From Campylobacterales bacterium (GTDB lineage: Bacteria; Campylobacterota; Campylobacteria; Campylobacterales; Hydrogenimonadaceae): a stretch of 16,738 bases of DNA. The DNA is taken from contig JAMOMS010000052.1 in NCBI GenBank assembly GCA_027067015.1, positions 1-16,738 on the forward strand, given 5' to 3'. The position numbers and the translations under genes are program-made. The notes beneath the pieces were generated by a model. It searched no databases and was not told the DNA's origin. It saw nothing but the letters and a program-made list of their open reading frames with translations. This document shows positions 1-13,164 of this stretch, piece by piece. Numbering within the stretch: the stretch's first letter is position 1; every line of letters starts with the position of its first letter.

Positions 1-113
1 GGCTTTATATGAGCAAGATTATCGTCGAAGAGCACTGCGGCGGCACCTTGACGGTGCGCAATATGGAGGCGGGGGCCTGTTTTACCATCGAGATTCCTCT
101 AGAGAGCCGTTAA
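1..113 (+). CDS. Sensor histidine kinase, C-terminal end (partial)
   Basis: The first 113 bases encode the last 36 or so residues of a protein that enters from the left edge (codons in frame from base 3, stop TAA at 111-113). The residues read LYMSKIIVEEHCGG, then a short strand and GACFTIEIPL. This matches the end of a histidine kinase ATPase domain: the G2 box (G-L-x-M-S/A-K), the helix in which the active fold continues, the glycine turn, and the final strand of the form G-T-x-F-x-I-x-L-P. The sensor part and the phosphoacceptor histidine lie outside the window, so the signal sensed cannot be stated. It is followed by about 100 bp with no gene before nifS and is probably a separate transcription unit. 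Confidence 0.72.
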   Translation, partial: LYMSKIIVEEHCGGTLTVRNMEAGACFTIEIPLESR

Positions 114-133
114 GCTATTGATTTTATTTATTC

Positions 134-158
134 AGGGCACTTTAAAGAGAGTTGCCCT
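134..158. repeat. Inverted repeat after the kinase gene, possible weak terminator
   Basis: AGGGCA (134-139) is complementary to TGCCCT (153-158) with a 13-base loop. The loop holds a small palindrome, CTTTAAAG (140-147). It lies 20 bases after the kinase stop codon, where a terminator would be expected, but no run of T follows, so it may instead be a protein site. The right arm is immediately followed by TAATAT (158-163), a possible -10 box for nifS. Confidence 0.3.
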
Positions 159-160
159 AA

Positions 161-213
161 TATGCTCCTGATTAATTCGGACAAATATTGTCCTATTTGA
201 AAGCGGGAGCATA
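161..213. promoter_or_regulatory. Nested palindromes in the nifS leader, likely operator or RNA fold
   Basis: Two perfect inverted repeats sit one inside the other. The outer one is TATGCTCC (161-168) with GGAGCATA (206-213). The inner one is GGACAA-ATA-TTGTCC (179-193). The right outer arm contains the GGGAG ribosome-binding sequence of nifS, so in RNA the outer stem would hide it. The inner 15-bp dyad has the size and symmetry of a dimeric regulator site. Fe-S assembly genes are often controlled by Rrf2-type repressors such as IscR, but this motif is not one I recognise as a known IscR site, so the regulator is inference. Confidence 0.5.
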
Positions 214-214
214 G

Positions 215-1405
<1,191 letters not shown>

Positions 1406-1406
1406 C

Positions 1407-2390
1407 ATGGCCAAGAGCGATTTGATCGGCGGCAGTATCTGGGAAGAGTACAGCCAGAAAGTCCAGGATCTGATGAACAACCCCCGCAACCAGGGGGAGC
1501 TGACCGAAGAGGACGCCAAGCGCCTGGGCGGTGAGCTGATCGTGGCCGATTTTGGCGCCGAGAGTTGCGGCGACGCGGTGCGGCTTTACTGGATTGTCGA
1601 TCCCAAGACCGATAAGATTCTGGATGCCAAATTTAAAAGTTTCGGTTGCGGCACCGCCATTGCCAGCAGTGACACGATGGTGGAGCTTTGCAAGGGCAAA
1701 ACGGTGGACGAGGCGGTCAAGATTACCAATATCGACGTCGAAAAGGCGATGCGCGACGAGCCGGATACCCCCGCCGTACCGCCCCAGAAGATGCACTGTT
1801 CGGTGATGGCGTACGATGTGATCAAAAAGGCGGCGTCACTCTATAAGGGCGTGGATATGGAGAGTTTTGAGGAGGAGATCATTGTGTGCGAATGCGCCCG
1901 GGTGAGCCTGAGCACCATCAAAGAGGTGATCAAACTCAACGACCTCAAAACCGTCGAAGAGATTACCGACTATACCAAAGCGGGGGCGTTTTGTAAAAGC
2001 TGTATCCGCCCCGGCGGCCATGAGGAGCGCGAATACTACCTGGTCGATATTTTGGAGCAGACCCGCAAAGAGATGGAAGAAGAGAAACTCAAAGAGCAGG
2101 CCGACAAACAGGCAAGCGGCGAAGAGGTACCCTTTAAAGAGATGACGATGGTGCAAAAGATCAAGGCCATTGATAAGGTGATCGATGAGAATATCCGCCA
2201 GTACCTGATTATGGACGGGGGGAATATGGAGATTTTGGATGTCAAAGAGAACGGCGAGTATACCGATGTCTACATTCGGTATCTGGGCGCGTGTAGCGGG
2301 TGCGCCAGCTCTTCAACCGGCACGCTCTACGCCATTGAGTCGACGCTGAAACAAAAACTCGACCCCAACATCCGCGTTCTGCCTATCTGA
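1407..2390 (+). CDS. nifU: Fe-S cluster scaffold protein NifU (three-domain)
   Basis: The scaffold on which Fe-S clusters are built from sulfur supplied by NifS and then passed to apoproteins. It has 327 residues and all three classical NifU parts. The IscU-like N-terminal domain carries three cluster cysteines (Cys54 in AESCGD, Cys81 in FGCGTA, Cys131 in MHCS). The central BFD-like domain has the permanent [2Fe-2S] ligands Cys161, Cys163, Cys196 and Cys199. The C-terminal NifU domain has the CxxC pair Cys296 and Cys299 in GACSGCAS. A charged linker (about 213-245, rich in E and K) separates parts two and three. AAGGAG lies just upstream of the ATG and inside the end of nifS. A strong terminator follows at once, so nifS-nifU forms a two-gene unit. 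No key residue is missing. Confidence 0.95.
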   Translation: MAKSDLIGGSIWEEYSQKVQDLMNNPRNQGELTEEDAKRLGGELIVADFGAESCGDAVRLYWIVDPKTDKILDAKFKSFGCGTAIASSDTMVELCKGKTVDEAVKITNIDVEKAMRDEPDTPAVPPQKMHCSVMAYDVIKKAASLYKGVDMESFEEEIIVCECARVSLSTIKEVIKLNDLKTVEEITDYTKAGAFCKSCIRPGGHEEREYYLVDILEQTRKEMEEEKLKEQADKQASGEEVPFKEMTMVQKIKAIDKVIDENIRQYLIMDGGNMEILDVKENGEYTDVYIRYLGACSGCASSSTGTLYAIESTLKQKLDPNIRVLPI

Positions 2391-2395
2391 CTTTC

Positions 2396-2419
2396 GCCGG
2401 CCTGTCCGGCCGGCTTTTT
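2396..2419 (+). terminator. Rho-independent terminator of nifS-nifU
   Basis: A perfect 7-bp G+C stem, GCCGGCC (2396-2402) with GGCCGGC (2408-2414), and a TGTCC loop are followed at once by five T (2415-2419). It begins five bases after the nifU stop codon. The last two T of the tract are part of the TAA stop codon of the convergent YceI-like gene. On the minus strand no T-run follows, so it works mainly for nifU. Confidence 0.9.
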
Positions 2420-2969
2420 AACGACACTTCTGCTCTAACTCCATCTCAAATGTTAAAGTAACATCCTGCCATGTTTTGCCCTCGTGCGGTTTTCTGCACG
2501 CGTCGGTCAGGGAGCGAAGGGCGGGGAGCATACCGAAATCGGCCAGGTCAATAACCCCTTGGGCCGTGATCAATTCGCCGTCACGTTTTAGGCGCATGGG
2601 GACGCGTCGGGTCGTGTCGTGCATGGTGATCTCCACGTCGGCCAGTTTGTCGGTAACGGAGAGTATTTGCGCCTCGATGGTGTCAACTCCCTGCGCTTGG
2701 AAGAAGTATTTGACAATTTTGGCGTCTCTGGCGCGGTTTTTGGTGCTGACGCTTTCGGTGTCAATCAGCATACGCGCGCCCCGCAATAGGGCGTCCATCT
2801 TTTCTTGGGGTTTGGCCGAGAGGCGTATGGCGTCAAAGCTTCCCTTCACGCCGATTTTGAGCGGGGTTTTATACGCTTCCCAGCCGACGGAAAAGTCTTT
2901 GACGCGCCAGCGGCACGTCTGGGCGCCAAACAGCGCGGCGGCTAAAATGAGCGGTAAGAAAAATCGCAT
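2418..2969 (-). CDS. YceI-like secreted protein
   Basis: Probably a small periplasmic lipid-binding beta-barrel of the YceI family; the ligand is not known from sequence. The reading frame can be extended to base 3122, but the first ATG with a good ribosome site (AGGGAG, about 5 bases upstream) is at 2969 and gives 183 residues beginning with a signal peptide: MRFF, a hydrophobic stretch LPLILAAALF, then GA-Q near residue 17. The longer version would place this signal inside the protein and overlap the upstream gene. The mature part shows VGWEAYKTPLKIGVKGSFD (28-46) and, near the end, EGKTWQDVTLTFEMEL (163-178), both typical of YceI proteins in Campylobacterota. Three cysteines (19, 158, 182) could form a disulfide. 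It lies 34 bp after the CiaB-like gene, on the same strand. Confidence 0.72.
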   Translation of the reverse strand: MRFFLPLILAAALFGAQTCRWRVKDFSVGWEAYKTPLKIGVKGSFDAIRLSAKPQEKMDALLRGARMLIDTESVSTKNRARDAKIVKYFFQAQGVDTIEAQILSVTDKLADVEITMHDTTRRVPMRLKRDGELITAQGVIDLADFGMLPALRSLTDACRKPHEGKTWQDVTLTFEMELEQKCR

Positions 2970-2994
2970 GGAACACTCCCTGTTGAAATATGTT

Positions 2995-3000
2995 ATTGTA
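2995..3000 (-). promoter_or_regulatory. Possible -10 box for the YceI-like gene
   Basis: The minus strand reads TACAAT in the 34-bp gap between the CiaB-like gene and the YceI-like gene, about 25 bases before the ATG. No convincing -35 box is seen, and read-through from the upstream gene is equally possible. Confidence 0.25.
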
Positions 3001-3003
3001 CCA

Positions 3004-4866
3004 TTATGCCTCAAACGGCATGGTCTCCTGGCCGATGGTTTGGTATCGGGCCCAGTAGTGATCGACAAAGGCGCGCACCCTATCGTTGACGGCGTGCCAG
3101 ATGCCGTTTTGTTTCCGTACATAGGTATCCAGGTAGAGCGTGGCGTCCTCTTTGGGCAGGTAAAAGTCGTGCACGAGCCGAATGTAGCGGGCCTCGTAGA
3201 GCGTTTTGGCCCGTCGGTAGGCCGTTTCGTCCAGGTTTATGAACAGTCGTTCGTTCTCAAAAGCCAGCACGCCCGCCTCGAAGAGAATATCCAGATGCAA
3301 AAGCCCCTCGACATAGTAGGGCTCCACCTCGCCCGTCTCGCGCCAGCTCATCAATCCTACGGCCCTGGCGACGGTATCGCGCAAAATCTCCTCTTTGATC
3401 GCTTCCTCTTCGTGGGAAAAAAAGGCCATCAGGCCGCCCACGGTGGCTTTGAATTCTTCGACGTTTTTATAGTTACCCGTGGCGTTCATTTTCACTTCCG
3501 TATCATCATCCACCCAAAGAATGTGGCCGTATTCGTGGCCGACGGTGGTGATTTCATAAACCTTGTGCCAAAGCTCGGGCGCTTCGTCCATGACTTTTCG
3601 GCTGTGGCGCACGAAGTCGTCTCCCAGAATCTCGCGGGCCAGCCGCATGACGGGACGGGCCTTTTTGGCCTCCAGCACATTGTCGGCGAAGGCGAAGATC
3701 TTTTTGCCAAGCTCTCGGCTCACTTCCGTGTCGTTGGGAACCACCTGCGCCGAGAAGAGCCCCTGAAATTCCGCCCCGTAAAAAAGGGCCGGCACGCCGA
3801 TATAAAGCTGGGTGCGTGCCACCTGCTCGGCGCAATTTCTTTGTAGCTTCATGGCCTCTTGGCCGAAGGTTTTAGCCAGCGCTTCGCTCATGGTAATGAT
3901 TTGGGAGGGGATGCGGGTCTTTTGCATCCGTTTGGGTGAGGCGATACGCACGTCCCACTCCAGCGCCACCGCTTTGCGGTAGTGGTCTTCGTAGTACTCC
4001 AGCGGGTGGCCGATCTGGACGGGGACGGTGATCGCCATCCATTTGCGATCCACCTCGGCCCACTTTTCGATCAGCCCCTCGATTTGCGTATGCCCAAAGG
4101 CGCCAATCAGTGCGTCCAGGTAGGCCAGCCACGCCTCTTTTTGGCCAAAGACCTCATCCTCCATCCCCGCCAGCACGCCCCGCATATTCTCCAGTTTGTT
4201 TAAAACCTCCATCACTTCCATGCGGAACGCTTTGGCGTAGGGGACGCTTTTGAAACCCTTTTTGCTCTTTTTGAGCACCGAGTAGCACCGATCCCCCGCG
4301 CAACCGGGTCGGCGCTCGTCCAGCAGGTTTTCGCACTCCAGCATCTCGTAGATTTTCTGCTCGTCGCCCTCAAAAAGCTCGTAAAGCTCCCGGTTGACGC
4401 CGTGGATGATGTGGGCGGTCCAGGCGCTTTGCCACCTGCTCATGGCTTCGCCCACCCGGTGGGCCTCTTTGAGAATCTCACGGTAAAAGGGAGTAAGTAA
4501 CGCCTCCTCCTCAATCCACTCCAGCAGTGCCATATGACGTTTGAGGTAAAAATCGGCCACCATCTTGTAGGCGGTCTCTTTGGCTTCGATGATCTCCTTT
4601 TCGTTAAATCCCTCTTTTTGCAAAACCTGGCTTAGGGCGTCGTCTCTAAGGCCGATAAGGCGCGTCAATGCCGCCATACGGGTATCGGGCGTCTCGGGCA
4701 GGCCCAGCCTGCGCAAAAAGTCGCCCACCCAGGCTTCCGCCTCCGCGTGGCCGCTGTCCAGCAGGTCGTAGTAGCTCCCCAGCGCCTTTTGGCGGCGTAA
4801 AATTTCGTCGTAGACTCTTTGAAGGTCTTCCATGAAGATGTCGCGGTAGAGGTTTTCGTTTTGCAT
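3004..4866 (-). CDS. ciaB: CiaB-like protein with an HEXXH zinc-peptidase motif
   Basis: This 620-residue protein resembles the CiaB family of Campylobacterota (about 610 residues), recognisable from SVPYAKAF (207-214), WAEVDRKWM (269-277) and HPLEYYEDHYRKAVALEWD (287-305). CiaB of Campylobacter jejuni was described as an invasion antigen, yet this genome looks free-living, so a general role is likelier. The sequence shows HEYGH at 444-448, followed by NVEEFKATVGG (468-478), which offers a glutamate as third ligand about 22 residues downstream. This is the layout of a gluzincin-type zinc metallopeptidase. No signal peptide or membrane segment is present, so it is probably cytoplasmic. The start at 4866 has only a weak ribosome site (GGAT); Met12 is an alternative. 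Homology to CiaB is from memory of the family, and peptidase activity is inferred from the motif. Confidence 0.75.
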   Translation of the reverse strand: MQNENLYRDIFMEDLQRVYDEILRRQKALGSYYDLLDSGHAEAEAWVGDFLRRLGLPETPDTRMAALTRLIGLRDDALSQVLQKEGFNEKEIIEAKETAYKMVADFYLKRHMALLEWIEEEALLTPFYREILKEAHRVGEAMSRWQSAWTAHIIHGVNRELYELFEGDEQKIYEMLECENLLDERRPGCAGDRCYSVLKKSKKGFKSVPYAKAFRMEVMEVLNKLENMRGVLAGMEDEVFGQKEAWLAYLDALIGAFGHTQIEGLIEKWAEVDRKWMAITVPVQIGHPLEYYEDHYRKAVALEWDVRIASPKRMQKTRIPSQIITMSEALAKTFGQEAMKLQRNCAEQVARTQLYIGVPALFYGAEFQGLFSAQVVPNDTEVSRELGKKIFAFADNVLEAKKARPVMRLAREILGDDFVRHSRKVMDEAPELWHKVYEITTVGHEYGHILWVDDDTEVKMNATGNYKNVEEFKATVGGLMAFFSHEEEAIKEEILRDTVARAVGLMSWRETGEVEPYYVEGLLHLDILFEAGVLAFENERLFINLDETAYRRAKTLYEARYIRLVHDFYLPKEDATLYLDTYVRKQNGIWHAVNDRVRAFVDHYWARYQTIGQETMPFEA

Positions 4867-4888
4867 CTTTTATCCGTTTTTTTATAAT
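4861..4888 (+). promoter_or_regulatory. Strong forward promoter divergent from the CiaB-like gene
   Basis: TTGCAT (4861-4866), a 16-base spacer and a perfect TATAAT (4883-4888) form a good sigma-70 promoter on the + strand. The expected start, seven bases after the -10 box, is G4895, exactly the first base of the long inverted repeat. The -35 box lies over the ATG of the CiaB-like gene. No conventional gene lies downstream on this strand before 5776, so the promoter most likely drives a small RNA or small peptide. The minus-strand reading of the same A+T-rich patch (ATTATA) may serve the CiaB-like gene. Confidence 0.55.
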
Positions 4889-4894
4889 TTTAGT

Positions 4895-4968
4895 GGATCA
4901 ACATAAACCTTCGTATGGTTGAAGGGGTGACAAGGCCGGCAAGGGTGGCTCCCGAGCCGGCTTTTTTT
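4895..4968 (+). ncRNA. Candidate small RNA (promoter to terminator, about 74 nt)
   Basis: From the predicted start at 4895 the transcript would have about 37 bases with little internal pairing, then a hairpin and seven T (4962-4968). The free 5' part is complementary, in three blocks, to the sequence just downstream on the same strand: GGATCAACATAA (4895-4906) with 5012-5023; CCTTCGTATGGTT (4908-4920) with 4981-4993, with one G-U pair; and GGGGTGAC (4924-4931) with 4971-4978, with one G-U pair. The downstream partner carries a strong AAGGAGGG ribosome site (4990-4997). If transcription stops at 4968, a free RNA complementary to that site would result; if it reads through, the same bases fold back on it in cis. 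No known RNA family is recognised. Confidence 0.42.
4935..4968 (+). terminator. Terminator-like hairpin inside the 4895-5023 palindrome
   Basis: GCCGGC (4935-4940) pairs with GCCGGC (4956-4961), and within it GGG (4943-4945) pairs with CCC (4951-4953) around a TGGCT loop, with a small AA/GA internal loop. Seven T follow at 4962-4968. This is a clear Rho-independent terminator for + strand transcription. On the minus strand it lacks a T-run and is only a hairpin. Confidence 0.8.
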
Positions 4969-4988
4969 ATGTCGCCCCAAAACCGTAC

Positions 4989-5098
4989 GAAGGAGGGCGA
5001 TATGTGATGGCTTATGTTGATCCTGCTGTTGCTTTGCATCGTCGCGGTGCGAGCGAACTAGCCTTCGCAGGCGGGCGTCGGCCCGTCCGCCCTCCTTC
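4989..5098. repeat. Second inverted repeat, competing with the first
   Basis: GAAGGAGGGCG (4989-4999) is perfectly complementary to CGCCCTCCTTC (5088-5098), 11 of 11. Between them lie three small hairpins: TCGC-GGT-GCGA (5042-5052), GCGAA-CTAGCC-TTCGC (5053-5068), and GGCGGGC-GTCG-GCCCGTC (5070-5087, one G-U pair). Bases 4989-4993 also belong to the arm at 4981-4993 of the first repeat, so the two long folds exclude each other. The right arm reads CCTCCTT, an anti-Shine-Dalgarno match to the left arm. Confidence 0.7.
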
Positions 5099-5119
5099 CT
5101 TGTTTTCTATACCCCGTTT

Positions 5120-5710
5120 TCACATGAGCATATTGATGATCGGTTTGGCCAGGCTTAACGCTTTGGAACGGTGCGACAACTCCCGCTTGATTTTCGGATC
5201 AAGCTCTCCCAGGGTCTGGTCGTAGCCTTCGGGTATAAAAATCGGGTCATACCCGAAACCGTCGTCGCCCCTTGGCGTGTCAATGATTTGACCGTGCATC
5301 CAGCCGTGGACGACATATTCGCCTTTTTTGCCGACAACGGCCACGGCGGCGGTGTAGAAGGCCGGCGTGGCGGAAAATCCCGTCTCTTTAAGTTTGCGAA
5401 CCAGTTTTTCCAGGTTTTGGCGATCACTCGCGCCTTCTCCCGCGTAGCGGGCGCTATAAATACCGGGCTCGTTGTTTAGAAGCGGTACGCTGATGCCGCT
5501 GTCGTCGCTGACAACCACGGCGTTGTCGTCCTGAAGCGCCTCAAAGACCGTGCGGGCCTTGATCAGGGCGTTGTCAGCGAAGGTGTCGCCGTTTTCCTCA
5601 ATCTCCAGAGGGCCCAGCAGGTCGGTAAAGGGGATAACCTCCTCATGCGCAAAGAGCTCGCGGATCTCCCTTACTTTACCCTTGTTTGAAGTGGCCAGAA
5701 TAATTCGCAT
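5120..5710 (-). CDS. rdgB: dITP/XTP pyrophosphatase RdgB (HAM1 family)
   Basis: A house-cleaning enzyme that hydrolyses non-canonical purine triphosphates (dITP, ITP, XTP) to the monophosphate and pyrophosphate, keeping deaminated bases out of DNA and RNA. It has 196 residues, the usual length. The N-terminus ILATSNKGK holds the nucleotide-binding T/S-N-x-K motif (7-10). Other family motifs are [14 protein letters not shown] (39-52), VSDDSGI (67-73, with the metal and catalytic aspartates), GIYSARYAG (83-91), GFGYDPIF (151-158) and SHRSKAL (179-185), the base-recognition loop. The start at 5710 has a modest ribosome site (AAGG about 11 bases upstream). It is divergent from the MFS gene and lies upstream of, and on the same strand as, the CiaB-like gene, with the structured 253-bp region between. 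Confidence 0.95.
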
Positions 5711-5739
5711 TCGTTTTCAACCTTTTTTATCATAAGGAG

Positions 5740-5745
5740 TATAAT
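5740..5745 (+). promoter_or_regulatory. -10 box for the MFS transporter gene
   Basis: A perfect TATAAT lies 30 bases before the ATG at 5776. A poor -35 candidate, TTCAAC, lies at 5716-5721 with an 18-base spacer. Transcription would start near 5752, leaving a 24-base leader with the AAGGGG ribosome site (5765-5770). The same bases overlap the start of a possible 11-codon leader frame, described under findings. Confidence 0.5.
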
Positions 5746-5775
5746 GTTGAGAAAATTTTACCATAAGGGGTTCTC

Positions 5776-7107
5776 ATGAAAGAGATTTTCCGCAAAGTTC
5801 TGCCCCTGAGCCTGATTGTGGCGTTACGCTTTTTCGGGCTCTTTATCGTCCTTTCGGTGTTGTCGCAGTACGCGCTTGGCCTGCCCGGCGGTACCGCGTT
5901 TCTGGCCGGGGTGGCCGTGGGCGGTTACGCCCTGACCCAGGCGGTTTTGCAGGTGCCTTTCGGGGTTTTGAGTGACCGGATCGGGCGTAAAAAGACCCTG
6001 CTGGTCGGTCTGCTGATCTTTGCTGTCGGTTCCGCGGTGGCGGCGTCGGCCGATACCATCTGGGTACTGCTGTTGGGACGCTTTTTGCAAGGCGCGGGCG
6101 CCATCGGTTCGGTGGTGACGGCGATGATCGCCGACCAGGTGCGCGAGGATGAGCGGGCCCACGCCATGGCGGTGATGGGGATGACCATTGCCATGAGTTT
6201 CGCCGCGGCGATGATCATCGGCCCCATCGTAGGCGGTCTTTGGAGCGTAAGCGCGCTCTTTTGGTTGACCGCTGTATTGGCGCTGGCGGCGCTGGCCATT
6301 CTCTTTACCGCCGTGCCCGAACCGCCCAAGATCGTGCATAGCTACACCGAGGAGGAGGCGAAGATCAAGCACGTCTTCAAAGACAAAGACCTGGTGCGTA
6401 TGTACATTACCTTTCTCTTTCACAGCTCCACCATGGCCATTGCCTTTTTCCTCATTCCCATCGTCATGAAACAGAAATTCGGCATGGGGCCCCAGGAGTA
6501 TTGGAAAATCTACCTTCCCGCCGTGATTTTCGGTATTGTGGCCATGGGGCCCGCGGCGGTATTTGGCGAAAAGTACGGCAAGGGTAAGGAGGTCTTTTTG
6601 GCTTCTATCGCCTTTATCGCTGTCAGCTTCGCCCTGATGGGCTGGAGCTCCAGCGTGCTATGGTTTGGCGTGGGGGCGACTTTCTTCTTTATCGGCTTTA
6701 ATATGTTTGAGCCGCTTTTGCAAAGCTTTGTGAGCAAGTTCGCCAAAGTGCACCAAAAGGGGGCGGCGCTGGGCGTGGCCAACACCTTTGCTTATGTGGG
6801 TATCTTTATGGGCGGCGCTGTGGGCGGCTGGCTCTATCAGACCTGGGGAGAGGCCGGGGTGGCGATACTGGTGATCGCCGTCTGCTTCTTCTGGGCGCTT
6901 TGGATCTTTACCATGCGAAGCCCCAGCGTGCGGGAGAACCTCTTTTTACCCTACGCCGAGTATGACAAAAGCAAGATGGATGGACTCAAAATGGTCAACG
7001 GCGTGACCGACTTTTACATGAACGAAACCGAAGAGATCATTGTGGTGAAGTTTGATAATGAGGTGGTGGACGCCGAAACCATCAAGACCTTTTTGGCCCG
7101 CCGCTGA
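5776..7107 (+). CDS. MFS transporter, YajR-like with C-terminal cytosolic domain
   Basis: A 443-residue inner-membrane transporter of the major facilitator superfamily with about 12 membrane segments in two halves, linked by a charged cytosolic loop near residues 183-207. Motif A is clear after the second segment: GVLSDRIGRKK (63-73). GANTFAY-like and GG-rich helices recur in the second half (ALGVANTFAYVGIFMGGAVGG, 331-351, in which the first 20 residues form one segment). After the last segment (ending about 380) comes a soluble tail of roughly 60 residues with an alternating strand pattern, TEEIIVVKFDNEVVDAETIKTFL (418-440, overlapping). This layout matches E. coli YajR, an MFS exporter with a ferredoxin-like YAM domain. 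The substrate is unknown; drug or metabolite efflux is a guess. Its 3' end overlaps the convergent GGDEF gene by 26 bp. Confidence 0.85.
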   Translation: MKEIFRKVLPLSLIVALRFFGLFIVLSVLSQYALGLPGGTAFLAGVAVGGYALTQAVLQVPFGVLSDRIGRKKTLLVGLLIFAVGSAVAASADTIWVLLLGRFLQGAGAIGSVVTAMIADQVREDERAHAMAVMGMTIAMSFAAAMIIGPIVGGLWSVSALFWLTAVLALAALAILFTAVPEPPKIVHSYTEEEAKIKHVFKDKDLVRMYITFLFHSSTMAIAFFLIPIVMKQKFGMGPQEYWKIYLPAVIFGIVAMGPAAVFGEKYGKGKEVFLASIAFIAVSFALMGWSSSVLWFGVGATFFFIGFNMFEPLLQSFVSKFAKVHQKGAALGVANTFAYVGIFMGGAVGGWLYQTWGEAGVAILVIAVCFFWALWIFTMRSPSVRENLFLPYAEYDKSKMDGLKMVNGVTDFYMNETEEIIVVKFDNEVVDAETIKTFLARR

Positions 7108-8236
7108 CGGCGTTTTCGATAAGGGGGGTGTAGATGACAAACGGCACCCTCTTTTGCTTGCTGTAGTACATGGCCGTATCGGCATAGTGTAGCAGGGTAT
7201 CCAGGTCGGTATCGTGGTCGGGGTAGATGGCCACGCCGATACTGGGAATGACTGTTAGGGTCAATCCCTCGCCCAGCCCCAGGGGTTGGCTGAGGGCGTC
7301 ATAGATTTTTTGGATAATGGGCTTGACGGAGGTGTTGTTGCCAAGATGGCATAACCCTACGACAAACTCATCTCCCGCGTATCGGGCGGCAATGTCGTCT
7401 TCGCGGATAATGTTTAGCAACCGTCTTCCGATAATTTTAATGACTTCATCTCCCGCGTGATGCCCGTAGGTATCATTGATCTGTTTGAATTTGGTCAGGT
7501 CTATAAAGAGCAGGGCCATGCGGCTATGCTCCTCTTTGGCCTGCTTGAGCGCCTTTTGGGTCAGCTCATGAAAGTACATTCGGTTAGGCAAGCCGCTTAG
7601 GGGGTCGTGGTTGGCTTTTTGCTCATAAAACTCTTTGGCTACCTTGATGCGTGAGACGTTTTTGATTAGATGAAGATAGTGTTTCCTTACCAGTCGGGCC
7701 GCTTTGAGGGAGTAGATATAGGAGACGACCAAAAAGAGGGCTGACGCGAAACCTTCGGGCGTAGCGGTCATGAGCAGTTTGTAGATAAGGTAAAGATTCA
7801 TCGGCGCGGTAAAGAGCACAAAAAGGCCCGTGACACTGCCGATGGTCAAAGTGCTTCCGAATGTCAGGGCGATGATAACGGCAAAGAGCATATAACGATG
7901 GGTGGGAGAAAGAAGCTCAAAGTAGTAAATCTCCGATGTCCAGAGCAGACCGGCGGTAAAGATGGCCAAAAAGAAGATACGCTGGCTTAAAAAGTAAATC
8001 TCGTGGTTCTGATTTTTTTGAAAACGCTCAAAAAGCAGTTTGGAAGCGATGCGTAACCCCAGTGTTGTCAGCGCTAATATATTCCAAAAGAGCAAAAACG
8101 CGGTGGGAACGTAGGGAAAGATAATCAGCTCAATATAGGCGGCGGCCACGCTCATGCCCAAAACGGCGGTGCGTGTCGCTTCCATGGTTATACGGTATAG
8201 CCGAATATCTGGAAAACGGGTATAAAGGTTAAACAT
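7082..8236 (-). CDS. Membrane diguanylate cyclase (GGDEF domain), copy 1
   Basis: Makes c-di-GMP from two GTP at the inner membrane. It has 384 residues: about six membrane segments in the first 180, a short helical link (185-205), then a GGDEF domain (about 210-370). The signature is AGDEF (287-291) rather than GGDEF, a variant found in active enzymes. FIDLTKFKQINDTYGH (244-259) supplies the metal aspartate Asp246 and the substrate asparagine and aspartate. RxxD (Arg278 to Asp281) lies five residues before AGDEF and is an intact inhibitory I-site, so product feedback is expected. What the membrane part senses is unknown. It overlaps the end of the MFS gene in convergent orientation. It is clearly paralogous to the next gene (8315-9430), including TFGxTxxIG and PMNL in the membrane part. 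Confidence 0.9.
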   Translation of the reverse strand: MFNLYTRFPDIRLYRITMEATRTAVLGMSVAAAYIELIIFPYVPTAFLLFWNILALTTLGLRIASKLLFERFQKNQNHEIYFLSQRIFFLAIFTAGLLWTSEIYYFELLSPTHRYMLFAVIIALTFGSTLTIGSVTGLFVLFTAPMNLYLIYKLLMTATPEGFASALFLVVSYIYSLKAARLVRKHYLHLIKNVSRIKVAKEFYEQKANHDPLSGLPNRMYFHELTQKALKQAKEEHSRMALLFIDLTKFKQINDTYGHHAGDEVIKIIGRRLLNIIREDDIAARYAGDEFVVGLCHLGNNTSVKPIIQKIYDALSQPLGLGEGLTLTVIPSIGVAIYPDHDTDLDTLLHYADTAMYYSKQKRVPFVIYTPLIENAVSGGPKRS

Positions 8237-8261
8237 AGTGACTCTTTTGCGGTATAAAGAT

Positions 8262-8267
8262 ATTGTA
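8262..8267 (-). promoter_or_regulatory. Possible -10 box for GGDEF copy 1
   Basis: The minus strand reads TACAAT about 26 bases before the ATG at 8236, in the 78-bp gap between the two GGDEF genes. The -35 region is poor. Its presence suggests that copy 1 can be transcribed separately from copy 2. Confidence 0.35.
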
Positions 8268-8314
8268 GCATAGGAGGCGTTAACAGAAGATTTACAAAGC
8301 GGCGTGATAACAGT

Positions 8315-9430
8315 TTATTTAAAAAAGGCGTAGGGTTTGTGGTTACGCTTGGCGTAGTACATGGCCTCATCGGCGTGGCGCATGAGGGTTTTGGCGGTGA
8401 TGCCGTGATCGGGATAGAGGGCGATACCGATACTCAGACTTACGGTAATATAGTCACCCTCTTCCAGGTGAATCGGTTCGTCAAAGAGGTGCTTAATGCG
8501 TTTTGCGATCTCCTTGGCGCGCTCTTTGGCGTTTATCTCTTTGACAATCATGACAAACTCATCGCCCGAGAGCCGGGCCAGAAGATCCTCTTCTCTTAGC
8601 GCGTGCCGAAGACGTTCGGCGACGGTTTTTAACACCAGGTCGCCCACATCATGGCCGTAGGTGTCGTTGATGCCTTTGAAGTCGTTGACATCGATAAAAA
8701 AGAGGGCAAAAGGGTGGCGCGATTTTCTGGTATCACGTAACATCCACTCAAAATGGCTAAAGAACTTCTCCCGGTTGGGCAAGCCGGTAAGGCGATCCGT
8801 GTTTGCTTTGTGCTCAAAATGCTCTTTGAGTGCCATGGCCTGCTCTTTTTGATCGAGCATGGTCATCAGGTTTTTGGCGTGCATTTGGGCCGCTTTGGTG
8901 GCAAAAAAGAAGTTGACGATCAAAAAGAGCGCCGCCGCGTGAAAGACGGGATGGGTTTTGATAATCAGCTCGCCGAACATGGTGAGATTCATGGGGAGGA
9001 TATAGCTAAAAAAAAGCGTGGGCAAAGGGCCGATAAACATGGTGGCGCCAAAGGTCAGGGAAATGACCAGCGCGTATATGAGAAAGAGATAGAGCGGGGG
9101 CGTGTTGACGGTAAAAAAGGGCATAAGGGCCCAAAGCAGGCCCGTGACAATCAAACTGGCGCTATAGAGTCCCAGTAGCGGTTGAAGGTGGGGGTCTTTG
9201 GGGTCGTTGAGCGTTTTGATCTGGCCGGTGAGACGGTAGCGAAGGTAGAGGTTGCCAAGATGTAAGCCGGCCCAGCCGAAAAGCAGGGACGGGGGTACAT
9301 GATCAAAAAAGATGACGGTCGCAAAAGAAAGGACCAGCAACTGCCCCGCAAACGCGGTGTCATACAGGGATATTTGCGTTTGTAAACGTCGTAGATCCGG
9401 CATAATAAAATTGCGCAAAAATTTGGCCAT
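8315..9430 (-). CDS. Membrane diguanylate cyclase (GGDEF domain), copy 2
   Basis: A second predicted c-di-GMP synthase of 371 residues with the same plan as its neighbour: about six membrane segments in residues 25-180, a helical link (185-205) and a GGDEF domain. The signature is SGDEF (288-292). FFIDVNDFKGINDTYGHDVGD (244-264) holds the metal aspartate Asp247; RxxD (Arg279 to Asp282) five residues before SGDEF is an intact I-site. Shared details with copy 1 include TFGATMFIGPLPTLF against TFGSTLTIGSVTGLF, and PMNL, which supports an old tandem duplication. The membrane parts have diverged more than the catalytic parts, so they may sense different signals. The start at 9430 follows GGGA by 7 bases. 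A 78-bp gap separates the copies. Confidence 0.9.
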   Translation of the reverse strand: MAKFLRNFIMPDLRRLQTQISLYDTAFAGQLLVLSFATVIFFDHVPPSLLFGWAGLHLGNLYLRYRLTGQIKTLNDPKDPHLQPLLGLYSASLIVTGLLWALMPFFTVNTPPLYLFLIYALVISLTFGATMFIGPLPTLFFSYILPMNLTMFGELIIKTHPVFHAAALFLIVNFFFATKAAQMHAKNLMTMLDQKEQAMALKEHFEHKANTDRLTGLPNREKFFSHFEWMLRDTRKSRHPFALFFIDVNDFKGINDTYGHDVGDLVLKTVAERLRHALREEDLLARLSGDEFVMIVKEINAKERAKEIAKRIKHLFDEPIHLEEGDYITVSLSIGIALYPDHGITAKTLMRHADEAMYYAKRNHKPYAFFK

Positions 9431-9457
9431 AAAATTTCCCTGAAAAACTTATCGCCA

Positions 9458-9463
9458 ATAATA
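9458..9463 (-). promoter_or_regulatory. Possible promoter of GGDEF copy 2
   Basis: On the minus strand TATTAT lies 27 bases before the ATG, with TTTACT 18 bases further upstream as a possible -35 box. The region 9431-9537 is A+T rich and holds no gene. Confidence 0.4.
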
Positions 9464-9508
9464 TCGGTTAAAGAAAGAGAAAGTAAATCCGTTTATATTA
9501 ATCATTTT

Positions 9509-9539
9509 AAACAAAAGAGTCGGATGAGACCTTTTGTTT
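9509..9539 (-). terminator. Likely terminator at the end of moeA
   Basis: AAACAAAAG (9509-9517) pairs with CTTTTGTTT (9531-9539), and inside it GTC (9519-9521) pairs with GAC (9528-9530) across a single bulged A. On the minus strand the right half of the stem ends in CTTTTGTTT, which can act as the U-tract. The stem overlaps the last bases of moeA. It is A+T rich and so weaker than the nifU terminator. Confidence 0.5.
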
Positions 9540-10746
9540 AGCGCAAACGAATCACCCGTACCCTCTCACCCGCTCTTTTTTCCTCTTCGCCCACGTTTAG
9601 CCATAGCAGTCCCGCATCGGCAAGCAGGTTGGTCATAATGGCGCTGGTACCGCTTCGTTTGCCCGAGAAATCGCACAGGTACTCACCCTCTTCAAGCCAA
9701 AGGTTGCAGGCGGCGAATTCGGTTTTGTTGGCCGTTTTCTTGCGGTAGCCGTCCAGCAGGCGCGCCGAGACGACGGGCAGGGTATACGACTGCCCTTTGA
9801 GACGATAAAGAATGGGCAGAACGTAAAGCAGAAAGGTCACGGTGGAGGAGTAGGCAAAACCCGGTAGCGCTACAATGAAGCGGTTCTCTTTTTGGGCTAC
9901 CATGATGTGTTGCCCCGGTTTGATGAGCACCCCTTTAAAGTGCACCTCGCACCCCAGTTCGTCACGGACCACATCTTTGACAAAATCGTAATCGCCCACG
10001 CTGACCCCGCCGGTGGTTACCAGAATATCGGCACTCTCAAGTCCTTGGCGCATCGCGTCGGTGATGGCGGCGCGGTCGTCACGGACGGCGCCCAACTGCA
10101 CCGCTTCGCCCCCATGCTGTTTGATCAGCGCCTCAAGGGTGTAGTTGTTGGAACTGCGTATCTGGGCCGGGTTGTCACTGCACACGCCAAGCTCCAGCAC
10201 CTCACTGCCGGTGGCCAGCACGGCCACTTTGGGTTTTTGGTAGAGCAGGGGGGCGACCATATTGAGGCTGGCCATCACCCCGATCTCGGCAAATCCCAGG
10301 GTGGCGCCTTTGGGGATGAGGGTTTCGCCTTCGCGGTAGTTTTCGCCCACGGGGCGTACCGAAAAGCCTTCGGGAACCGGCTCGTCAATGCGGATTTTTC
10401 CCGCTTCAAAGGTGACGTTTTCTACGGGTATGAGCGTATCGGCCCCTTCGGGCATTAAGGAGCCGGTAAAGGTCTTGATGGCGGTGCCGGGGCGCACTCT
10501 CATGCCCGTTACGTCACTGCCGGCGGCGTTGTCGTGCAAAACGGTTATCTCCCCTTTGGCCTGGTCGGCGCCGATGATGGCGTAACCGTCCATGGCGGCG
10601 GTGGGGTGTTTGGGGGAGTTCTCTTTGGCGACGACCTCTTGGGCAAGTACCCGGTTGAGCGCGTCGGGCAGGTAGCGTTTTTCCACGCCGACGGGTCGGA
10701 CGGAGAGATTTTGGATGATTCGCATCGACTCTTCAAATGTCAGCAC
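9538..10746 (-). CDS. moeA: Molybdopterin molybdenumtransferase MoeA
   Basis: Inserts molybdenum (or tungsten) into adenylylated molybdopterin, the last step of molybdenum cofactor synthesis. It has 402 residues, the normal length. Family motifs are PTAAMDGYAI (48-57), FTGSLMPEGADTLIPVE (93-109), ATGSEVLELG (178-187), RSSNNYTLEAL (197-207), TTGGVSVGDYDFVKDV (244-259) and LPGFAYSSTVTF (294-305). The segment usually written GED is GEN here (134-136), which I believe is common in Campylobacterota. The start is GTG at 10746, supported by AAAGGAG about 6 bases upstream; it lies only two bases after the moaE stop codon, so the genes are translationally linked. The product supports the molybdoenzymes (nitrate reductase, formate dehydrogenase and similar) that these bacteria use for respiration. 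Confidence 0.95.
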   Translation of the reverse strand: MLTFEESMRIIQNLSVRPVGVEKRYLPDALNRVLAQEVVAKENSPKHPTAAMDGYAIIGADQAKGEITVLHDNAAGSDVTGMRVRPGTAIKTFTGSLMPEGADTLIPVENVTFEAGKIRIDEPVPEGFSVRPVGENYREGETLIPKGATLGFAEIGVMASLNMVAPLLYQKPKVAVLATGSEVLELGVCSDNPAQIRSSNNYTLEALIKQHGGEAVQLGAVRDDRAAITDAMRQGLESADILVTTGGVSVGDYDFVKDVVRDELGCEVHFKGVLIKPGQHIMVAQKENRFIVALPGFAYSSTVTFLLYVLPILYRLKGQSYTLPVVSARLLDGYRKKTANKTEFAACNLWLEEGEYLCDFSGKRSGTSAIMTNLLADAGLLWLNVGEEEKRAGERVRVIRLR

Positions 10747-10748
10747 GG

Positions 10749-11195
10749 TTACTCCTTTGCGCTTAAAAGGCCACTGCCTGCCATCGGGGTGGAGCGGTCG
10801 GCGGCGTAGAGACGACGACCGTTAATGACATCATACTTCCAGATGGGAGCATTGGCTTTAAAATCTTCCACGAAAGCGTCCAGCATCTCAAGCGCCACCC
10901 GCCGTTTGGGGCTGAAGATGGCGCAGGCAAACGAGCTTGCGTGTACCGGTACGTCGCCTTGGCTGTGGGCCATGATCAGCAAAGCTCCTTTGTCGGCCAG
11001 GCGTCGGCGCCAGCTCTCAAACCACGTTTCCAAAACGGGGCGGTAGATGTCAAAACTGAGCGCCTCAATGCCGCCCTCTTCCCGAATAGTCCCCACAAAG
11101 GTGACCATGGCGCCGTAGTTTTTGTTATGTTCGGCCTCATACCACTCTTTTAAAAGCTCGGTTACGGGTAGGGGACCGTCAAAAATCAGCAACAT
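10749..11195 (-). CDS. moaE: Molybdopterin synthase catalytic subunit MoaE
   Basis: Large subunit of molybdopterin synthase: with thiocarboxylated MoaD it puts two sulfurs into cyclic pyranopterin monophosphate. The frame is open to 11279, but the ATG at 11195 has AAGGAG nine bases upstream and gives MLLIFDGPL, like other MoaE N-termini. That makes 148 residues. GAMVTFVGTIRE (28-39) and DFKANAPIWKYD (111-122) match the family, and the latter holds both active-site lysines (Lys113, Lys120). Two usual motifs are altered: HRxG reads HSQG (77-80), and the HRxxAF segment reads KRRVAL (97-102), though one arginine remains. It lies between moaD (43-bp gap) and moeA (2-bp gap). Confidence 0.92.
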   Translation of the reverse strand: MLLIFDGPLPVTELLKEWYEAEHNKNYGAMVTFVGTIREEGGIEALSFDIYRPVLETWFESWRRRLADKGALLIMAHSQGDVPVHASSFACAIFSPKRRVALEMLDAFVEDFKANAPIWKYDVINGRRLYAADRSTPMAGSGLLSAKE

Positions 11196-11238
11196 CTTCA
11201 CTGGCTCCTTGCGTTTTTGGTTGGATGAGTTGTTCTGT

Positions 11239-11460
11239 TTAACCGCCGCACACGGGGGGCAGGAGGCTGATACGGTCACCGTTTTTAAGCGGTATATCCA
11301 TGCTTTTGACCAATTTGTCGTTGACCGCTACGGCGCACTGGGAAAGCCACGGGGCCACATCGGGCTCTTGTCGCAGGCGTTCGGCCACCTCTTTGAGCGT
11401 GGCCGCCTCCAGGGTCAGGGGGGCTTTGCCGATAGGCCCGAGAAACTCGACCGTTACCAT
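11239..11460 (-). CDS. moaD: Molybdopterin synthase sulfur carrier subunit MoaD
   Basis: A small ubiquitin-like protein whose C-terminal glycine is adenylated and then thiocarboxylated, carrying sulfur into the MoaE active site. The frame could be extended to 11517, but the ATG at 11460 with GAGGAG upstream gives 73 residues, a usual MoaD length, and the longer version would remove the promoter. The N-terminal strand MVTVEFLGPIG, the segment AVAVNDKLV (43-51), the run NGDRISLLPPVCGG (60-73) and the final Gly-Gly are diagnostic. It is the first gene of the moaD-moaE-moeA cluster. The MoeB-type activating enzyme is not in this window. Confidence 0.93.
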   Translation of the reverse strand: MVTVEFLGPIGKAPLTLEAATLKEVAERLRQEPDVAPWLSQCAVAVNDKLVKSMDIPLKNGDRISLLPPVCGG

Positions 11461-11479
11461 CTTTATCGGTCTCCTCTTT

Positions 11480-11509
11480 TTGAAGGGATTATAACACAGT
11501 GGGTATAAT
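11480..11509 (+). promoter_or_regulatory. mqnA promoter, leaderless start
   Basis: TTGAAG (11480-11485), an 18-base spacer and a perfect TATAAT (11504-11509) lie directly before mqnA. The predicted transcription start, seven bases after the -10 box, is base 11516, the A of the mqnA ATG. No ribosome-binding sequence is present between the -10 box and the ATG. The mRNA therefore looks leaderless. Confidence 0.6.
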
Positions 11510-11517
11510 GCGGTCAT
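11488..11517 (-). promoter_or_regulatory. Promoter of moaD-moaE-moeA
   Basis: On the minus strand a perfect TATAAT (11488-11493) is preceded by ATGACC (11512-11517) with an 18-base spacer. Transcription would start near 11481, about 20 bases before the moaD ATG, leaving room for the GAGGAG ribosome site. It overlaps face to face with the mqnA promoter, so the two polymerases would compete. Confidence 0.6.
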
Positions 11518-12181
11518 GATATTCGGGAAAATCGCCTATTTGAATCTTTTGCCTTTTCACGCCTTCATGAAACGCTACCTTCGTCACAACGCCGAGAAAG
11601 GCGCCTGGTTGTCGGGAGGCGGGGTGCCCGCCAAGGTCAACCGCGACTTTCGGCGCGGTCGGGTGGACGCGGCGGTAATCTCCAGCATACGCAGTCGCGG
11701 CTGTGATTGCACCGATCTTGGCATCATCGCCGACGGGGAGGTGATGAGCGTGTTGGCACTGCCGGGGCGCTCACGCCCGGACGGCGCGTCCGAAACCTCC
11801 AACGCGCTGGCCCGCGTTTTGGGCGTGGAGGGAGAGGTGGTCATCGGCGACAGGGCGTTGGCACTCTATTTTCAAAAGCCCCCCGAGGGGACGATCGATC
11901 TGGCAAAGGAGTGGAAGCGACGTTACGGCCTGCCCTTTGTCTTTGCCCGGCTCTGTGCCGCCCCCCGTTACCGCCGCCGGGTGACGCGCATGGCGCGCCT
12001 TTTTCACAAGGCGCCCGTACGGGTACCTTATACGCAAAGGCGCAAAGAGGCGACGCGCCACGGTTTGAGCGTGGCGCAACTTGATCTATACCTTTCAAAA
12101 ATCTACTACCGAATGGGCTGGCGTGAGAAGCGGGGACTGGCCCTTTTTCTCAAAAAAGCGTCCCGTTTGCGAAAAATTTAA
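11516..12181 (+). CDS. mqnA: Chorismate dehydratase MqnA (futalosine menaquinone pathway)
   Basis: First committed enzyme of the futalosine route to menaquinone: removes water from chorismate to give 3-enolpyruvylbenzoate. The N-terminus IFGKIAYLNLLPFHAF (2-17) is typical of MqnA in Campylobacterota, and SGGGVPAKVNRDFRRGRVDAAVISSI (about 34-59) covers the ligand-binding loop of this periplasmic-binding-protein-like fold. The later segment EGEVVIGDRALALYF marks the second lobe. At 221 residues it is shorter than the 260-290 of most MqnA proteins, which I believe is usual in this phylum. The last third is unusually rich in Arg and Lys. The ATG at 11516 has no ribosome site, but it starts where family members start and where the promoter predicts the RNA begins. 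Confidence 0.85.
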   Translation: MIFGKIAYLNLLPFHAFMKRYLRHNAEKGAWLSGGGVPAKVNRDFRRGRVDAAVISSIRSRGCDCTDLGIIADGEVMSVLALPGRSRPDGASETSNALARVLGVEGEVVIGDRALALYFQKPPEGTIDLAKEWKRRYGLPFVFARLCAAPRYRRRVTRMARLFHKAPVRVPYTQRRKEATRHGLSVAQLDLYLSKIYYRMGWREKRGLALFLKKASRLRKI

Positions 12182-12208
12182 TTGAAGTTAAAAATTTACT
12201 GCTAAAAT
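12182..12208 (+). promoter_or_regulatory. Promoter of the cytochrome c peroxidase gene, near-leaderless
   Basis: An extended -10 element, TGC followed by TAAAAT (12203-12208), lies nine bases before the ATG at 12217. TTGAAG (12182-12187) is a possible -35 box, with a short 15-base spacer that an extended -10 could tolerate. The predicted RNA start is about 12215, leaving a leader of some two bases, and no ribosome-binding sequence is visible. Confidence 0.45.
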
Positions 12209-12216
12209 TTCCAATT

Positions 12217-13164
12217 ATGAAGCTTCTATATAAAACGGTGTCGGTATGGATGGTTTTGGTGTGGACGGCATGGGGGTTATATGCGCAAGAGCCGATTCAG
12301 CCCATTCCCAAACATCTCTCTTATAACCACGCCAAAGCCGTGCTTGGGTATCGGCTTTTTATTGATCCCGCGCTTTCGGCCGACGGGACGGTAGCGTGTG
12401 TCAATTGTCACAGTTTCGGTCACGGCGGCGCCGATCCCCGGCCCGTTTCCGTGGGTGTTCACGGCAAAAAAGGGCATGTCAACGCCCCGACGGTCTACAA
12501 CAGTTACTTTAATTTCCGCCAGTTTTGGAACGGGCGGGCAAAAGATCTCAAAGAGCAGGCCGGCGGCCCTTTGCACAACCCGATAGAGATGGCCATGCGG
12601 CCGCACCAGGTAGAAAAGTATCTCAACCAAAACGGCCAATACCGCCGCCTGTTTCAAGAAGTGTACGCCAGAGCGCCCCGTTATACGGACGCGCTGGACG
12701 CCATCGCCGAGTTTGAGAAAGCCCTTTATACGCCCGATTGCCGTTTTGACCGCTATTTGCGCAAAGAGGCGGATTTGACGCCACTGCAAAAGCGGGGGTA
12801 CGATCTTTTTAAGACCGACGGGTGCATCACCTGCCACAACGGCATCAATATCGGCGGCAACAGTTACCAGAAGATGGGCCTTATTATCCCCTATCCCTGG
12901 TCCGCGAAAGCGCCGGATCGGTTTCGCCTGACCAAAAACCCGATGGATAAGAACGTTTTTAAAGTGCCGACACTGCGAAACATCGTTTTAACGGCCCCCT
13001 ACTTTCACGACGGAAGCGCCAAAACGCTCAAAGAGGCGTTGCAGAAGATGGCCTACCATAATCTCGGGTTTGAGTTGGATAAAAAAGAGATTGAGGCGCT
13101 GGAGGCGTTTTTAAAAACCCTGACGGGGCGTACGCCGGCTATTTTGAAAGAGATGGGAATGTAG
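12217..13164 (+). CDS. Di-heme cytochrome c peroxidase (CcpA/MauG family)
   Basis: Periplasmic enzyme that reduces hydrogen peroxide to water with electrons from cytochrome c. It has 315 residues. A signal peptide covers about residues 1-23 (MKLLYK, then the hydrophobic run VSVWMVLVWTAWGL, then AQ). Two heme c motifs are present: CVNCH (61-65), the peroxidatic heme, and CITCH (203-207), the electron-transfer heme. Other family marks are FWNGRA (103-108) with the Trp that links the hemes, PTLRNIVLTAPYFHDGS (251-267) and LQKMAYHNLG (275-284), where Met278 should be the distal ligand of the high-potential heme. It has its own promoter. The next gene starts directly after its stop codon, so the two are co-transcribed. 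Role: peroxide defence or peroxide respiration. Confidence 0.93.
   Translation: MKLLYKTVSVWMVLVWTAWGLYAQEPIQPIPKHLSYNHAKAVLGYRLFIDPALSADGTVACVNCHSFGHGGADPRPVSVGVHGKKGHVNAPTVYNSYFNFRQFWNGRAKDLKEQAGGPLHNPIEMAMRPHQVEKYLNQNGQYRRLFQEVYARAPRYTDALDAIAEFEKALYTPDCRFDRYLRKEADLTPLQKRGYDLFKTDGCITCHNGINIGGNSYQKMGLIIPYPWSAKAPDRFRLTKNPMDKNVFKVPTLRNIVLTAPYFHDGSAKTLKEALQKMAYHNLGFELDKKEIEALEAFLKTLTGRTPAILKEMGM

Follow-up and report, generated by a model that had tools for sequence, protein, structure and literature searches.

Why should a short gap between two genes of a Campylobacterales genome hold, in immediate succession, a promoter, a nested inverted repeat, a terminator, and a ribosome site? The question is raised by the space between the rdgB and DUF7897 genes on contig JAMOMS010000052.1 of assembly GCA_027067015.1 (Hydrogenimonadaceae), whose forward-strand positions 1 to 16,738 constitute the window, that is, the whole stretch of DNA under study; coordinates given here without another locus name are positions within it. 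The element in this gap is probably a type I toxin-antitoxin module with an Ibs-like toxin, in which the antitoxin would be a prematurely terminated leader of the toxin mRNA, both RNAs arising from one promoter and one strand. Comparison with relatives shows that its promoter, a unit the size of a small RNA (sRNA), a terminator in the sense direction, covarying arms, pairing of the RNA with the toxin codons, a stretch complementary to the Shine-Dalgarno (anti-SD) sequence, and a selected peptide are conserved.

Re-reading of the window bears out the layout described in a first-pass annotation, which had placed a promoter with its start at the edge of a nested palindrome, followed by a terminator whose seven T end at 4968 (Table 1). 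A promoter scan chose the identical -10 with the -35 shifted one base to the left, and the predicted start, G4895, lies seven bases past the -10. The three complementary blocks that had been claimed between 4895-4931 and 4971-5023 measure 12, 13, and 8-9 bp, two G-U pairs are indeed the sole non-Watson-Crick pairs within them, and the strong ribosome site assigned to the 3′ stretch is present as AAGGAGG. What the annotation missed is the predicted target of the sRNA, namely that this ribosome site serves the gene of a tiny hydrophobic peptide; it also missed a second anti-SD at 5088-5098 and the larger extent of the element (approximately 250 bases). The two fates that had been envisaged for a short and a read-through RNA are supported by predicted folding. 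The predicted fold of positions 4893-5024 (132 nt) has an energy of -75.6 kcal/mol and a z-score of -8.8, a stability that none of 200 shuffles equals, and the short RNA (4895-4970), folded separately, gives two hairpins (z -2.8); since the separate folds give two hairpins in one case and a long hairpin in the other, the two RNAs differ in predicted structure. The peptide frame of the window copy, which is interrupted, reopens at an internal ATG at 5014 and then encodes 15 residues.

Table 1. Features of the element and its neighboring genes in the window.
Feature	Position	Strand	Basis or remark
Promoter TTGCAT-16-TATAAT	4861..4888	+	-35 TTGCAT 4861-4866, -10 TATAAT 4883-4888
Predicted leader sRNA, proposed antitoxin, ~74 nt	4895..4968	+	Fold, copy comparison, duplex energies
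RNA 5′ end	4895..4906	+	Complementary to 5012-5023 (12 bp) in toxin frame
Arm with anti-SD (CCTTC)	4908..4920	+	Pairs with 4981-4993, 13 bp, one G-U; fold and covariation
Inner arm	4924..4931/32	+	Pairs with 4970/71-4978, 8-9 bp, one G-U; fold and covariation
Intrinsic terminator	4935..4968	+	Stem 4935-4940/4956-4961, then seven T 4962-4968
3′ arms of nested repeat	4970..4993	+	Fold and covariation
Shine-Dalgarno AAGGAGG	4990..4996	+	Read in sequence; alignment
Toxin-like peptide frame	5002..5061	+	Window copy interrupted: in-frame stop is second codon
Hairpin 3′ of frame	5067..5090	+	
Second anti-SD CGCCCTCCTTC	5088..5098	+	Perfectly complementary to 4989-4999; also tested over 35 copies
Whole gap holding element, 253 bp	4867..5119	.	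Between rdgB and DUF7897 genes
rdgB, Ham1 family	5120-5710	-	Element's neighbor
DUF7897 gene	3004-4866	-	Element's other neighbor

The element is a member of a multi-copy family. A DNA search of 100 genomes yielded one clear relative, in the congener G009 (E 1.4e-6), whose arms differ from those of the window and yet pair equally well, and whose frame behind the ribosome site is intact. In the window's own genome, a DNA search at E up to 0.001 matched the window copy alone. With the window copy and G009 as its two sequences, a first covariance model found 18 elements at E <0.02 in 10 of 149 genomes, with three further genomes giving only a weak partial match (E up to 1). The second covariance model, built from these 18 elements, was run against four sets of genomes. 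Within the window's genus, 7 of 18 genomes together contain 13 copies; among 398 genomes of the order, 21 have matches (41 in total, from five families); for the phylum the figures are 34 matches and 18 of 397 genomes, and for a Sulfurimonas-like genus 67 matches and 28 of 135 genomes, where a single genome has as many as six. The sets are not disjoint, and filters in the larger searches lose weak matches. One genome of the Sulfurimonas-like genus, G032, showed no element. In detail, 44 copies were catalogued, which form the basis of most counts given here, and the extra Sulfurimonas-like matches lie outside this catalogue. The layout, complete or partial, recurs in these 44 copies with covarying arms, in keeping with the earlier judgement that it exceeds chance. 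A search of plasmids with one Sulfurimonas-type element as query returned six short matches, none covering more than 16% of the query, and one Sulfurimonas-type coding motif had no exact match in viral contigs. The motif TTTTTTTATGTCG was rejected as a family marker: it occurs in 47 of 199 genomes, but the 16 forward matches that were read, out of 30 loci fetched, contained the element only in the window and G009. In G088, two full elements stand in tandem approximately 200 bp apart (L133, 372-483 and 684-791, minus strand).

In the alignment of the 18 elements, 95.6% of the cells in 22 arm pairs are standard pairs, and the paired arm changes that the first-pass annotation had proposed to seek by a covariance-model search in relatives are found, as two-sided changes, in 21 of the 22. 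The covariation score is 0.72, as opposed to 0.25 in shuffled alignments and at most 0.14 when the partners are slid, and no shuffle out of 500 attains the observed values. Fitting of the alignment to the model introduces a bias that the slid control meets only in part, and one opposite-strand match was removed by a stricter threshold before this test. Across 41 copies, which remained after six opposite-strand matches (mirror images of the palindrome) were removed from 47 rows, the 853 arm cells comprise 758 Watson-Crick pairs, 67 G-U, 7 A-C, and 21 others, a count toward which the fit to the model leans. The excess of G-U over A-C (67 vs. 7) points to constraint on a sense-strand RNA rather than to DNA repair or to an antisense RNA, and the constrained molecule thus seems to be the sense RNA. 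Copies that share neighboring genes have arms that are mostly different and yet matched to each other. Such groups include four congeneric copies (G000c, G003b, G007b, and G008), which have the upstream gene in common, three of them also the downstream gene, and four Sulfurimonas-like copies (G123b, G246b, G388b, and G529b), which have both neighbors in common. The exception is G000c, whose 5′ arm resembles that of G007b and whose arms are poorly matched. To judge from these alignments, the arms turn over and their pairing is mostly kept. In the third copy of the window's genome (L112, G000:C219), the arms match poorly and the end of the frame is altered.

The frame behind the ribosome site is intact in 35 of the 44 copies by the criterion used, with 19-22 residues in 33 of these and 14 and 32 residues in the other two. 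The peptides are hydrophobic, with a mean grand average of hydropathy (GRAVY) of 1.80, and fall into two main kinds, one in the window's genus, e.g., MWRLLLIVLLLCLLAEKAF (G007b), and one in the Sulfurimonas-like genus, e.g., MDKLVITILLMCIFAPLLR (G334b). Three groups, of 22, 4, and 3 copies, have ratios of nonsynonymous to synonymous differences (pN/pS) of 0.36-0.42, and in a frame test of the 22 copies the ratio is 0.27 in the true frame and 0.59 and 4.56 in the other two, values that indicate that the peptide is under purifying selection. Searches of Pfam and NCBIfam with five peptides of at least 20 residues found no credible family, with one chance-like Pfam match at E 2.6. After the stop codon, the tail forms a hairpin and then a stretch complementary to the SD. 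The helix between SD and tail averages 6.94 bp for a copy's own tail and 5.70 bp for permuted tails, with a maximum of 6.29 in 1000 permutations over 35 copies; the mean excess is modest, single copies showing a large one. A marginal member of the family, in G441 (L140, ~1501-1602, minus strand; E 0.0026), has well-matched arms and a terminator, and its different peptide, of 32 residues with a basic tail, may reflect a toxin exchange under the same RNA layout.

The conserved peptide, a predicted toxin, might instead be a harmless small membrane peptide under the control of its leader, acting as an attenuator, thermosensor, or ligand switch. Such a role is quite unlikely. The patchy presence of the element, its up to six copies per genome, the loss of the frame in 9 of 44 copies, and the divergent arms of paralogs fit toxin-antitoxin loci better, and the leader sequence is not conserved as would be expected of a sensor.

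The part upstream of the peptide gene is conserved as a predicted transcription unit of its own. TATAAT is matched exactly by the best -10 in 34 of the 44 copies and with no more than one mismatch in 43, the hexamer scored in G123a, G334a, and G529a standing at an unusual distance. Among the 35 intact copies, an exact TATAAT occurs on the sense strand in 29, with 5.2 expected from mononucleotide shuffles, and on the antisense strand there is no enrichment by the same measure (exact in 2 of 35 vs. 3.0 expected; at most one mismatch in 16 of 35 vs. 18.8 expected). Predicted start and T run are separated by 58-77 nt in 39 of the 44 copies, by 53-55 nt in four, and by 40 nt in the marginal G441. 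All 44 copies carry a sense T run of six to nine T (mean 8.6); no comparable T run exists on the opposite strand of these copies, where the A run before the stem reaches at most 4. The terminator loops belong to a few recurrent types that are often self-complementary, e.g., GGGTAGCTCCC, GGGAGTCATGACCC, and GGAGTAATTAACC, and that are common across species (alignment columns 36-58); perhaps they are kissing or protein sites.

Pairing between the sRNA and its target was assessed in a region largely outside the covariance model. The first 16 nt of the sRNA form a mean helix of 9.71 bp with toxin codons 2-13 in 35 copies, compared with 4.70 bp in permutations (standard deviation 0.23), which supports both the predicted start point and an antisense role. 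Over all 44 copies, cognate sRNA-target duplexes average -41.6 kcal/mol and non-cognate ones -26.9 kcal/mol (standard deviation 5.4). Each sRNA prefers its own target over the others in its genome, except that of G000c, and the G000:C219 sRNA binds the target of the window copy at -41.7 and its own at -34.4 kcal/mol; some sRNAs have equal or better partners among the targets of other genomes. Since the copies were found via their hairpins, this cognate preference speaks for divergence of paralogs and is no independent proof of pairing.

The long hairpin might by itself suffice, as a lock in cis that silences the read-through mRNA of which it is a part, with the short RNA a side product of attenuation. 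At full length this hairpin is very stable and able to form in every read-through molecule, and the arms differ between paralogs, as this explanation allows. It is nonetheless unlikely, in that a cis lock needs no terminator, and yet at least six T are kept in 44 of 44 copies. Nor does it need a unit without a toxin, yet G003 keeps a free-standing promoter-sRNA-terminator unit directly upstream of a full element (L138, minus strand, ~880-790). Among the 44 targets, this orphan sRNA is predicted to pair best with the two from G003 itself, which suggests action in trans and does not prove it.

In the type I module that is favored here, most transcripts would stop at the built-in terminator and yield the ~74-nt sRNA. 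Its 5′ end is antisense to the toxin codons and its arm to the ribosome site, as though part of the toxin start had been copied, inverted, and set upstream. A minority of transcripts would read through and serve as the toxin mRNA. In these, the 5′ arm would capture the ribosome site in cis as this site emerges, with the 3′ anti-SD as a second lock. Attenuation would keep the sRNA in excess over the toxin mRNA, and processing may free an active mRNA, which would then be silenced in trans by the sRNA. Once transcription stops, the sRNA, if labile, would disappear first and translation of the toxin would win. We infer the transcripts, the toxicity of the peptide, the processing of the mRNA, the silencing in trans, and the final success of the toxin from the arrangement and comparison of the copies.

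Several points weigh against this proposal, beginning with the inferred standing of the transcripts, the toxicity, and the trans action. Every read-through mRNA contains the sRNA sequence in cis, so that its silencing needs no trans role. The preference for cognate duplexes follows in part from the hairpin that was used to find the copies, and that of the orphan sRNA of G003 for its two own targets is modest, with 18 of 200 and 9 of 200 shuffled RNAs as good. The second model finds no copy in 11 of the 18 genomes that represent the window's genus, and 9 of the 44 copies, that of the window included, lack an intact frame by the criterion used. Loss of the toxin with retention of the RNA would be expected of toxin-antitoxin loci, and in one copy an assembly error may lie behind the interruption. 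An exact antisense TATAAT in G015a and G246a makes an antisense RNA possible there. SIB_RNA, the Rfam family of the Sib antisense RNAs, matches 3 of 19 known copies in 120 genomes and 1 of 20 short loci, all below the family cut-off. Lastly, the SD-tail helix of Escherichia coli ibsB, at 5 bp, does not exceed the permuted mean of the present family.

The surroundings of the window copy suggest how it arrived. In four congeners (G002, G005, G011, and G017), rdgB and the DUF7897 gene overlap by 4-8 bp; in the window they lie 253 bp apart, and this gap is the element itself, the -35 of its promoter overlapping the DUF7897 start codon on the minus strand. Because genes that overlap in congeners are thus separated, the element looks like a compact insertion into an operon, oriented on the opposite strand. 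The comparison of rdgB covered 14 congener loci; the DUF7897 side was readable in these four and in G007, which has a different sequence after rdgB, and the other nine showed the opposite end. This placement, together with its palindromic and dispersed nature, would also suit a palindromic repeat resembling a miniature inverted-repeat transposable element or a REPIN, with arms kept alike by DNA repair. That origin is extremely unlikely, given that the copies within the window's own genome are not near-identical DNA (one by DNA search as against three by covariance model), that G-U exceeds A-C on one strand, that selection acts at the level of codons, and that promoter and terminator are conserved. 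Elsewhere in the window, the DUF7897 protein (3004-4866) contains a HEYGH motif, read by eye, and may be a zinc peptidase, and two adjoining, similar-looking membrane proteins with GGDEF-like motifs (also by eye) are encoded at 7082-8236 and 8315-9430.

Among known systems, the toxin half most resembles ibs/Sib, of which E. coli MG1655 has five copies (PMC4147584, as far as its text was available). Here, too, an RNA is predicted to be complementary to the start region of the toxin mRNA, as in type I systems in general. Both families are multi-copy; their hydrophobic peptides are of like length (~19 residues here, 18 in ibsB, and 19 in ibsA), and several of those in the present family end in AY, as do those of ibsA and ibsB. 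According to the portion of PMC8309996 available, the IbsC peptide tolerates shortening to 15 residues. Both arrangements also have a terminator-like hairpin before the ribosome site and another hairpin after the stop codon (the E. coli hairpins by eye), and they may share an anti-SD-like stretch behind the latter. The SD-tail helix, by the same measure, is 7 bp in ibsA and only 5 bp in ibsB, and that of the present family lies above its permuted mean. At Rfam gathering scores, the window gave no match and 18 loci gave three tRNAs only. In a permissive search of 20 short loci, a single one of the 29 matches up to E 10 is SIB_RNA. For the window element, the top-scoring Rfam match is SIB_RNA (RF00113), over its full length and on the antisense strand, with 15.1 bits (E 1.7 and 0.94), though in each run an unrelated family, scoring lower, had the smaller E-value. 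Across 120 whole genomes, the SIB_RNA matches listed are led by two that lie antisense on elements of the family, G015a (39.9 bits over the full model, E 1.6e-6) and G000c (24.8 bits, E 0.008), with the window at E 1.9; some SIB_RNA match up to E 10 occurs in 51 of the 120, and none exceeds the gathering score of 56 bits.

These antisense matches (39.9, 24.8, and 15.1 bits) and the antisense TATAAT of G015a and G246a would fit a classical ibs/Sib locus, with an antisense RNA from the opposite strand as the antitoxin and a sense leader that merely tunes expression. This is very unlikely to describe the family, in which no match reaches the SIB_RNA cut-off, TATAAT on the antisense strand is no commoner than expected (exact in 2 of 35 copies vs. 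3.0), the opposite strand lacks a long T run, and the prevalence of G-U over A-C favors a sense RNA. The rival explanations weighed here are partly compatible with one another. The antitoxin that is proposed for the present family differs from Sib in being a same-strand leader from the promoter of the toxin, and the 178 nt upstream of the ibsA and ibsB ribosome sites form a helix of 5-6 bp with the start region, compared with a mean of 10.8 here. Given the shared peptide and hairpins, the lack of such a leader upstream of ibsA and ibsB, and the counts of TATAAT on the two strands, the toxin half is regarded as Ibs-like and the antitoxin arrangement as different; the Ibs-likeness may reflect homology or convergence. 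The first-pass annotation had recognized no known family; the likeness of the toxin half to ibs/Sib is recognizable. The observation as a whole is confirmed, and its interpretation is partly supported.

Two further systems bear comparison. AapA/IsoA of Helicobacter is likewise from the Campylobacterota, and several anti-SD elements lock its toxin mRNA; however, IsoA is an antisense RNA, and the available part of PMC6733600 describes no leader sRNA of the present kind. The present family has no conserved antisense promoter, and AapA1 has 30 residues (PMC8309996, in part), whereas 34 of the 35 intact peptides here have 14-22. Type III ToxIN resembles the family in carrying promoter, antitoxin RNA, intrinsic terminator, and toxin on one strand, and approximately 90% of toxIN transcripts stop at the terminator (both from the available text of PMC4147584). 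In contrast to ToxIN, the present element has no tandem repeats (no direct repeats in window positions 4600-5400), its toxin is a peptide of ~19 residues (intact range 14-32) and not an RNase, and its RNA is complementary to the toxin mRNA. The literature searched, which left most subscription sources outside and is thus weak evidence of novelty, yielded no same-strand leader antitoxin of this kind. The chances appear about evenly balanced that the family represents a novel class of toxin-antitoxin system, combining the gene order of type III with the base-pairing of type I, with one promoter for both RNAs and attenuation setting their ratio. In such a class, an Ibs-like toxin could have exchanged its antisense RNA for an upstream inverted copy of its own start region, and turnover of the arms could keep paralogs from silencing one another. 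If this reading is true, the build is an unusual one for a toxin-antitoxin pair, since the toxin's own promoter first makes its silencer RNA. Antisense antitoxins would then need neither the opposite strand nor another gene, and one promoter and one terminator would suffice.

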